DNA of 64,000 nucleotides from Bordetella holmesii ATCC 51541 (GTDB lineage: Bacteria > Pseudomonadota > Gammaproteobacteria > Burkholderiales > Burkholderiaceae_B). Positions 30,896 to 33,643 of this stretch are shown here, piece after piece. The DNA is taken from NCBI GenBank assembly GCA_000612485.1, contig CP007494.1, positions 1,364,001 to 1,428,000 of the forward strand, written 5' to 3'. Under the pieces are notes generated by a model. The model was given only the letters and a program-made list of their open reading frames with translations. It did no database searches and was not told the DNA's origin. Each line of letters starts with the position of its first letter. The stretch's first letter is position 1. A program made the translations under genes and the position numbers.

Positions 30896-33643
30896 CTAGC
30901 GGTTTTTGTTGCGCTGCAAAACCCGGGCCAGATAGTGGCCGGTATGGCTTTGCGCAGCCTCGGCAACCGTTTCGGGCGTGCCCTGCGCCATCACCCTGCC
31001 GCCACCGTCGCCGCCTTCCGGACCCATGTCGATAAGCCAGTCGGCAGTTTTGATGACATCGAGGTTGTGCTCGATGATCAGCACCGTGTTGCCGCTGTCG
31101 ACCAGTTGATTGAGGACTTCGAGCAGCATTTCGATATCGCGGAAATGCAGGCCGGTGGTGGGTTCATCCAGGATGTAGAGCGTGCGGCCCGTACTGCGCC
31201 GCGACAGTTCCAGCGACAGTTTGACCCGTTGCGCTTCGCCACCCGACAGCGTGGTTGCCGATTGCCCTAGCCGGATGTACGACAGGCCGACATCAATCAA
31301 GGTCTGCAGCTTGCGCGCGATCGCGGGGACGGAATCGAAATACTCCAGCGCCTGCTCGACGGTCAGGTCCAGCACTTGGCTGATATTGCGACCGCGGTAG
31401 CGGATCTCCAGTGTTTCGCGGTTGTAACGCTTGCCGTGGCAGACGTCGCAAGGCACGTATATATCGGGCAGAAAATGCATTTCCACCTTGACCACGCCAT
31501 CGCCCTGGCAGGCTTCGCAGCGTCCGCCCTTGACGTTGAAGCTGAAGCGGCCGGGGTCGTAGCCGCGCGTGCGTGCTTCCGGCACGCCGGCGAACAACTC
31601 GCGAATCGGTGTGAACAGCCCGGTATAGGTGGCCGGGTTGCTGCGTGGCGTGCGGCCGATCGGACTTTGATCGACGCTGATGGTTTTATCGAAATGCTCC
31701 AGGCCGGTCAGCGTCGCGTAGGGCGCGGCATCGCCTTGCGCGTGATTAAGCGCGCGCGCCACCGCCACGGCCAGCGTGTCATTGATCAGGGTCGACTTGC
31801 CCGAGCCGGAGACGCCGGTCACGCAGACCAGGCGGCCGGCAGGCAGGCGCAGGTCGACCGACTTGAGGTTGTTGCCCGTGGCGCCAGTCAGTTCCAGCCA
31901 GGGCAGATCGTCGGTGACGGGCCGTCTTTGCGGGATGGCAATTTCGCGCGCACCGCTGAGGTACTGGCCTGTCAGCGAGGCTGGATCGGCCTCGACGGTT
32001 TCGGGGCGTCCCTGCGCGACGACCTGGCCGCCGTGCTCGCCGGCACCCGGCCCCATGTCCACCACCCAATCGGCCAGGCGGATCATGTCTTCATCGTGCT
32101 CGACCACGATGACGCTGTTGCCCAGGTCGCGCAGGTGCTGCAGGGTGGAGATCAGGCGATCGTTATCGCGTTGATGCAGGCCGATGGAGGGTTCGTCCAG
32201 CACGTACATGACGCCAGTCAGGCCGGAACCGATTTGGCTGGCCAGGCGGATGCGTTGTGCCTCGCCGCCCGAAATCGTGTCGGCGCTGCGGTCCAGCGAC
32301 AGGTAGGTCAGGCCGACGTTGTTCAGAAAGCTCAGCCGCGCTTCGATCTCGCGCACGATACGTTGCGCGATCTCCTGTTTGGCACCGGTCAGTTTGAGCA
32401 TTTGAAACCAGGCCAGGCAGGCCGACAGCGGCATGGCCTCCACTTCGTAGATGGCCCGGCCGCGCTCCTGGCCCTGGCCGGGTTCGTCGCCGATCAGCAC
32501 GTGGCGAGCCTCGGGCCGCAATCGCGATCCGCCGCAATCCGGGCAGGTCTTGATGTTGCGGTACTTGCCCAGCTCTTCGCGCACGGTGGCCGAATCGGTC
32601 TCGCGCCAGCGCCGTTCGAGGTTGGGGATCACCCCTTCGAAGGGATGCCGCTTGACGCTGCTGCGGCCTTTTTCATTAAGGTAGAAGAAGGCGATTTCTT
32701 CGTCGCCCGAGCCATAGAGCACTTTGTCGCGTATCTCGTCGCTGAGCTCTTCGAAAGGTGTTTCGATATCGAACTCGTAATGCGTGGCCAAGCTGGTCAG
32801 CAGCGAGTGCGTGAAGGCATTGCGTTTGTCCCAACCGCGGATGGCTCCGGCCGCCAGGCTGAGTTCCGGCAGGCTGTGGCTACAGACAGGGCAGGCGTAG
32901 CGGCTGGAGAATACGTGCTCACGCGTGCTGTCCATGTCCAGCGCAATGGCGCGCCCATCGGCCAGCTGCAAGGCGGTCTCGAAGCTTTCGGCAAGCCTCT
33001 GCTTGCTTTCTGGCCGGGCTCGCAGCCGATCGATCACGACATCGATATCGTGCTTCTCGGTTTTCTTCAGCGGCGCCATCTGGTCGATTTCGACGAGTTT
33101 GCCGTCAACGCGCAGGCGCACAAGGCCCTGAGCCTGGAGGCTAGCGCACTCGTCCTCGAAACTGCCTTTGCGGGCCCGGGCGATGGGGGCAAGAATGGCC
33201 AGCCGGGTATCGGCAGGCCAGGCGAGCACCGCGTCGACCATCTGGCTGACACTTTGCGCTTGCAGGGGCAGGCCATGATCCGGGCAATAGGGGGTGCCTA
33301 CCCGGGCGTAGAGCAGGCACAGATAGTCATGGATCTCGGTGATGGTGCCGACCGTGGAGCGCGGGTTGTGGCCCGCGGCCTTCTGCTCGATGGAGATGGC
33401 TGGGGACAGACCCTCGATCAGGTCCACGTCCGGTTTGTCCATCAACTGCAGGAACTGCCGGGCATAGGCCGACAGGCTTTCGACATAGCGCCGCTGGCCT
33501 TCGGCATAAAGCGTATCGAAGGCCAACGACGACTTGCCCGACCCGGACAGGCCGGTGATCACCACCAGACGGTGGCGCGGCAGATCCAGTGAAACATTCT
33601 TGAGATTGTGCGTGCGGGCACCGCGAATGCGTATTTCGTCCAT
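30896..33643 (-). CDS. uvrA: Excinuclease ABC subunit A, with in-frame deletion in zinc finger 1
   Basis: UvrA recognises DNA damage in nucleotide excision repair and loads UvrB. Two ABC modules are visible, each with Walker A (GLSGSGKSSLAFDT near residue 33; GVSGSGKSTLIND), signature (SGGEAQRIRLA; SGGEAQRVKLS) and Walker B (DEPSIGLHQRD; DEPTTGLHFRD). Zinc finger 2 is intact (CEAC and CDVC). Zinc finger 1 has only its first pair, CPVC: after SLPEL the sequence jumps to SLAAGAIRGWDKRN, so about 37 residues including the second CxxC are missing compared with E. coli UvrA. At 915 residues it is shorter than the 940-950 norm. The frame is preserved. Confidence 0.95.
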   Translation of the reverse strand: MDEIRIRGARTHNLKNVSLDLPRHRLVVITGLSGSGKSSLAFDTLYAEGQRRYVESLSAYARQFLQLMDKPDVDLIEGLSPAISIEQKAAGHNPRSTVGTITEIHDYLCLLYARVGTPYCPDHGLPLQAQSVSQMVDAVLAWPADTRLAILAPIARARKGSFEDECASLQAQGLVRLRVDGKLVEIDQMAPLKKTEKHDIDVVIDRLRARPESKQRLAESFETALQLADGRAIALDMDSTREHVFSSRYACPVCSHSLPELSLAAGAIRGWDKRNAFTHSLLTSLATHYEFDIETPFEELSDEIRDKVLYGSGDEEIAFFYLNEKGRSSVKRHPFEGVIPNLERRWRETDSATVREELGKYRNIKTCPDCGGSRLRPEARHVLIGDEPGQGQERGRAIYEVEAMPLSACLAWFQMLKLTGAKQEIAQRIVREIEARLSFLNNVGLTYLSLDRSADTISGGEAQRIRLASQIGSGLTGVMYVLDEPSIGLHQRDNDRLISTLQHLRDLGNSVIVVEHDEDMIRLADWVVDMGPGAGEHGGQVVAQGRPETVEADPASLTGQYLSGAREIAIPQRRPVTDDLPWLELTGATGNNLKSVDLRLPAGRLVCVTGVSGSGKSTLINDTLAVAVARALNHAQGDAAPYATLTGLEHFDKTISVDQSPIGRTPRSNPATYTGLFTPIRELFAGVPEARTRGYDPGRFSFNVKGGRCEACQGDGVVKVEMHFLPDIYVPCDVCHGKRYNRETLEIRYRGRNISQVLDLTVEQALEYFDSVPAIARKLQTLIDVGLSYIRLGQSATTLSGGEAQRVKLSLELSRRSTGRTLYILDEPTTGLHFRDIEMLLEVLNQLVDSGNTVLIIEHNLDVIKTADWLIDMGPEGGDGGGRVMAQGTPETVAEAAQSHTGHYLARVLQRNKNR

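Follow-up and report, generated by a model that had tools for sequence, protein, structure and literature searches.

An in-frame 37-codon deletion in uvrA of the Bordetella holmesii type strain removes half of zinc module 2

The uvrA gene of Bordetella holmesii ATCC 51541 lies in the window analyzed here, which is the whole 64,000-nucleotide stretch of CP007494.1 from position 1,364,001 to 1,428,000, and it encodes a UvrA shorter than those of related bacteria. This raises the question of whether the short form is a trait of the family, an error in the sequence or a lesion of this strain, and of what it leaves of excision repair. The strain is the type strain of the species, and its genome of 3,699,674 base pairs (bp) was obtained by PacBio and HiSeq sequencing with HGAP assembly (PMC5624759). 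We consider it fairly probable that uvrA suffered a recent, strain-level loss mutation by deletion between short repeats, that UvrA is weakened or dead as a result and that, with uvrC broken as well, excision repair is defective; the deletion mechanism, the structural effect and the loss of repair are the parts of this reading that we infer. The deletion itself, its rarity among the sequences searched, the existence of an intact form in the species, the match of the lost pair to zinc module 2 and the split frame of uvrC are observed.

On the minus strand, uvrA forms an uninterrupted frame from 33643 down to 30896, and the gene is the only full-length standalone copy in the source genome. Its product scores above the cut-offs of both UvrA equivalog models (NF001503, 1425.3 bits against a cut-off of 1147; TIGR00630, 1335 against 729.8, in two stretches). 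Across the junction at 32860/32861, the short protein reads YACPVCSHSLPEL directly followed by SLAAGAIRGWDKR, where relatives carry EPRLFSFNNPMGACPSCDGIGQVGYFDPKRVVAFPEL. The initial annotation had put the in-frame loss between SLPEL and SLAAGAIRGW at about 37 residues, and alignment to the relatives makes it exactly 37 residues (111 bp); in agreement with that annotation, the gap is not a homopolymer error. It had also reported a missing CxxC pair, and indeed the lost segment includes, besides the FSFNNP strand, a CPSC cysteine pair, present in the relatives and gone from the 915-residue form. The features of the gene, in window coordinates, are the following.

30896 to 33643, minus strand: short allele of uvrA, 915 amino acids, an open frame scoring above the UvrA equivalog cut-offs and 100% identical to protein P0001 of our protein search
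32860 to 32861, minus strand: deletion junction between L261 and S262, where 111 bp (37 codons) are gone in comparison with relatives
32861 to 32869, minus strand: CCGGAACTC, the P-E-L codons, sole surviving copy of the short end repeat, from the sequence and the ends in relatives
32882 to 32893, minus strand: CPVC (C251, C254), kept, inferred zinc module 1, from the sequence and the Ecm16/UvrA2 comparison
33275 to 33286, minus strand: C120-P-D-H123, kept, presumed second half of zinc module 1, from a pattern match
32534 to 32545, minus strand: C367-P-D-C370, orphan half of zinc module 2, equivalent to Ecm16 C296/C299, in a region (363 to 375) modeled with a predicted local distance difference test score (pLDDT) below 50
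31439 to 31519, minus strand: zinc module 3 (C709, C712, C732, C735), kept, from a pattern match
32567 to 32869, minus strand: DNA-binding insertion domain, still encoded, Pfam match PF17755 at residues 259 to 359 (E value, 5.5e-34)
32936 to 33256, minus strand: UvrB-binding domain, Pfam match PF17760 at residues 130 to 236 (E value, 3.7e-34)

The comparison with relatives proposed in the initial annotation was run on two sets of genes, which may overlap. In the same-genus set, 15 genomes including the source genome were searched and 14 matched, the one without a match being 77% complete; the segment is present in all 13 of the other UvrA genes. A wider contig scan, from which the best 80 of at least 591 confirmed relative loci were kept, gave the segment in every one of the 80 (79 by pattern and L088 by direct reading). 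Since all 93 relative loci examined keep the segment and none has the short form, the short UvrA was rejected as a trait of the wider family. The protein search, made with UvrA residues 236 to 300 and listing the best 120 of 2125 relatives, found the 915-residue protein P0001 on 5 contigs, the longest of which has 3,701,221 bases against 3,699,674 for the source genome, so that the short form must occur in at least two sequence records. A 952-residue protein, P0002, named excinuclease ABC subunit UvrA of Bordetella holmesii, is found on 84 contigs, and alignment of the two shows no difference outside the 37-residue gap. Among the 120 listed, only P0001 matches this region ungapped at 100%; the 119 others have 51 to 64% identity over it (51 to 61% for the 118 besides P0002), as is expected where the segment intervenes, and the five that were aligned (P0002, P0003, P0004, P0006 and P0007) all carry it. 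Because the relatives and the intact B. holmesii form keep the segment, the short UvrA is neither a chance nor a family-wide difference, and these sequence comparisons suggest a minority allele that arose recently in B. holmesii. A literature search on Bordetella holmesii and uvrA returned no printed account of the short allele, most subscription journals lying outside its coverage.

How the segment was lost is suggested by its ends. In 13 relatives, where they lie 111 bp apart, the longest stretch of identical bases common to both is 3 to 9 bp (39 bases compared), and it is 6 bp in the nearest relative, L089; part of this similarity is expected because both ends encode Pro-Glu-Leu. The initial annotation had pointed to PEL stretches at both ends and to deletion between short repeats, and such a deletion is indeed plausible from the ends as compared in the relatives' DNA. 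An in-frame deletion of 111 bp between the two short Pro-Glu-Leu repeats would have taken away at once the N-side cysteine pair of zinc module 2 and, with it, the FSFNNP strand that leads up to this module.

The initial annotation had assigned the lost CxxC pair to zinc finger 1; alignment to Ecm16 (7SH1) instead places it in zinc module 2. In a PDB search with the corresponding piece of an intact relative, query residues 25 to 166 matched 7SH1 chain residues 192 to 324. By a mapping derived from the end points of this match rather than from a residue-level alignment, the GACPSC cysteines (query 29 and 32) fall on chain positions 196/199 and those of CPDC (query 158 and 161) on 316/319. Passages of the Ecm16 report give the ligands of its zinc module 2 as C176, C179, C296 and C299 (PMC10192343), and the mapped positions equal these numbers plus a constant 20, with a spacing of 120 in both. 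Because the offset is constant and the spacing equal, the deleted pair is assigned to module 2, where it supplies half of the ligands in this clasp at the insertion domain's base. The same passages have zinc module 1 accompany the UvrB-binding domain and describe Ecm16 and UvrA2 as lacking both (PMC10192343); the PDB matches to UvrA2 (2VF7) and to 7SH1 start downstream of CPVC, which fits a place for CPVC in module 1. In the short UvrA, the two-pair CxxC module that flanks the insertion domain is thus incomplete, with the GACxxC pair gone and C367/C370 left. The former pair is found in all 93 relative loci and the latter, as CxxCxGxRL, in 92 of them, no frame having been found in L067. The zinc-module-3 pattern matches 85 of the 93, and its misses (L067 and seven framed proteins) may mean that the pattern is too strict or that the genes differ.

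What the loss would do to the protein can be judged from models and from better-known UvrA proteins. Two AlphaFold2 models, of the short and the intact form, were built with the same 34 companion sequences (35 sequences each). The mean pLDDT is 74.2 for the short form versus 81.3 for the intact one, and the template modeling score (TM-score) to 2R6F chain A is 0.69 versus 0.83. The short-form model falls below 50 at the junction (258 to 270) and at the orphan pair (363 to 375), and blocks of insertion-domain residues 281 to 340 have a pLDDT of 71 to 85. Signature domain I bears both inserted domains and is part of the distal ATPase site, according to published passages (PMC6486640), and Ecm16 without its insertion domain is described, in the passages mentioned above, as not binding DNA (PMC10192343). 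We propose that module 2 fastens the insertion domain, at both of its ends, onto signature domain I. The ATPase halves and the UvrB-binding domain are expected to fold even when this module is missing, but the insertion domain would then sit on a loose base, giving a weaker grip on DNA and perhaps a weaker distal ATPase site. The short UvrA is likely a hypomorphic to null protein. The suggestions of the initial annotation that such a protein may be unstable or altered in damage recognition, and may raise the mutation rate, stand as hypotheses.

Excision repair in this genome is also touched at uvrC. The gene (G000:C1:2773237-2774978) is in two frames of 484 and 169 amino acids, with a single-base difference near codon 460; the first piece holds the GIY-YIG and UVR domains and part of the RNase H domain, and the second holds the remainder of RNase H and the helix-hairpin-helix motifs. 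Among the 14 same-genus genomes with a match, only the source genome has uvrC split, the 13 others having it in one frame. An intact UvrC of 608 amino acids (P0121, from a cluster of 6 sequences) occurs on 80 contigs and is identical to 99% of the first piece; the longest contig bearing it has 3,699,999 bases, as does the longest bearing the 952-residue UvrA. The remaining genes uvrB, mfd, mutS and mutL are each one open frame. Because uvrC is frameshifted in addition to the UvrA deletion, excision repair is probably defective in the strain, although we are less sure of the uvrC lesion than of the uvrA deletion, since a difference of one base may be an error of the PacBio-based assembly. If the uvrC lesion is real, repair would be broken twice, and whichever of the two came first may have relaxed the selection on the other. 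A tandem UvrA-like protein of 1945 amino acids (G000:C1:924280-930117) was not accepted as a stand-in for UvrA. On visual inspection, both CxxC pairs of module 2 are still present in its second half, although its insertion domain is very short.

The surroundings of uvrA show some further signs of change. The window is collinear with the relative G009 across 4733 to 35743. Within this part, a resB-like gene (18034 to 20117) is in two frames with its N-terminal part separate, the G009 counterpart matching PF05140; the split is likely a pseudogene or a sequencing error. A G009 open reading frame of 464 amino acids with two stops in the window has no Pfam match and was dropped as a possible non-gene. 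The gene list of the window is mechanical and includes shadow frames, and it was not used as a rate. Published passages describe the pilus loci of B. holmesii as degenerate through pseudogenes (PMC5045587). Because of such gene decay in the lineage, the uvrA deletion is less remarkable as an event. Near uvrA-ssb, an integrase-core transposase frame (rve, rve_3) lies at 36418 to 37194, and the collinearity with G009 ends just before it, at 35743; we take this transposase to be IS481-like. The stretch from 37215 to 41058 has about 68% DNA identity to its best G009 match with many indels, versus 87 to 89% in the preceding stretches, and may be divergent, replaced or paralogous. It includes a frame (37208 to 38863) that presumably resembles asparagine synthase.

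Could the short allele owe its existence to the handling of the strain or of its sequence? That 111 bp collapsed between near-repeats during sequencing or assembly seems to us very improbable. Short repeats do flank the gap, and the one-base uvrC frameshift in the same assembly is of an error type that PacBio assemblies may leave, but the same 915-residue protein recurs on five contigs, the longest differing in length from the source genome, and repeats of just 3 to 9 bp are too short to make long reads collapse. A far more serious candidate, to which we give only slightly less than an even chance, is that the deletion arose after isolation, while the type strain was passaged in the laboratory, and that the five contigs come from repeated sequencing of one strain. 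The genome is that of the type strain, which was isolated in 1983 (PMC5624759), the short form is found on 5 contigs versus 84 for the intact one, and the rest of the protein is unaltered; on the other side, the allele may also circulate naturally. An origin in passage concerns the source of the deletion and is compatible with the loss-of-function reading.

A different objection is that the shortened UvrA works well enough, its loose insertion domain still aiding DNA binding, and that the allele is near-neutral. The deletion spares both ABC halves, modules 1 and 3 and the UvrB-binding domain, every remaining residue matches the intact form, and much of the insertion domain is still modeled with the confidence given above. 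We nevertheless hold this unlikely, because all 93 relative loci retain the cysteine pair missing here, a conserved strand is deleted with it, P0001 stands alone among the 120 listed proteins in matching ungapped while the five others aligned keep the segment, and Ecm16 depends on its insertion domain for DNA binding. Several further points weigh against a weakened UvrA and a double lesion. The short-form model is also poor far from the deletion (below 50 at 703 to 741), and both models are shallow, being built from 35 sequences; for these reasons the pLDDT contrast is no more than suggestive and is given little weight. No other residue of UvrA has changed, hence no sign of later decay, as is expected if the deletion is recent. 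The uvrC frameshift could be an assembly error, and the intact UvrC P0121 is listed without a species name. E. coli UvrA without the insertion domain reportedly kept damage discrimination (Wagner 2011), and the first zinc-binding region is said to have been held dispensable in older work (Visse 1993); such reports that E. coli tolerates some lesions or losses in the insertion-domain region would make a working protein possible. T. maritima UvrA lacking 117-399 was crystallized (6N9L; mentioned in PMC6486640), and for this reason the core of the short UvrA may stay folded. It also seems hardly credible that loss of uvrA was favoured because less excision repair raises the supply of mutations in a host-restricted pathogen. 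Two excision-repair genes are altered in one assembly, and parts of a report on B. hinzii describe hypermutators with many changed repair genes, including uvrA_1 and uvrC (PMC8302680); on the other side, mutS and mutL are open, and the two-framed resB-like gene in the window lets general decay explain the uvrA loss.

Set beside known systems, the short UvrA shares with class I UvrA (Geobacillus 2R6F, T. maritima 3PIH) the ABC ATPase halves, the UvrB-binding and insertion domains, zinc module 3, the inferred module 1 ligands and equivalog scores above cut-off, and it differs in lacking the 37 residues, i.e., two of the four module 2 ligands and the FSFNNP strand. With the class II proteins UvrA2 and Ecm16, it has in common the insertion domain and module 3; these proteins are reported as being without the UvrB-binding domain and module 1, which is the reverse of the short UvrA. 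The engineered T. maritima deletion (6N9L) likewise lacks the N-side region of module 2 and was crystallized all the same, but it has both the UvrB-binding and insertion domains fully removed, whereas the short UvrA keeps both.

On our reading the uvrA deletion is ordinary gene decay, apparently in a reference strain, and what makes the short allele interesting is that it cleanly removes a single defined zinc module and that it sits in this particular strain. Because the rest of the protein equals the intact form, the allele offers a ready-made test of UvrA zinc module 2. It is possible, though rather doubtful, that the short UvrA is stably made and partly active without a complete module 2, and that the type strain, which serves as a laboratory reference, is doubly mutant in excision repair and in this differs from most of its species. 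If so, a stable short UvrA would be a natural test of what the module 2 clasp contributes, and, if confirmed, data on ultraviolet light, oxidants, DNA-damaging drugs and mutation obtained with the type strain may fail to represent B. holmesii as a species.
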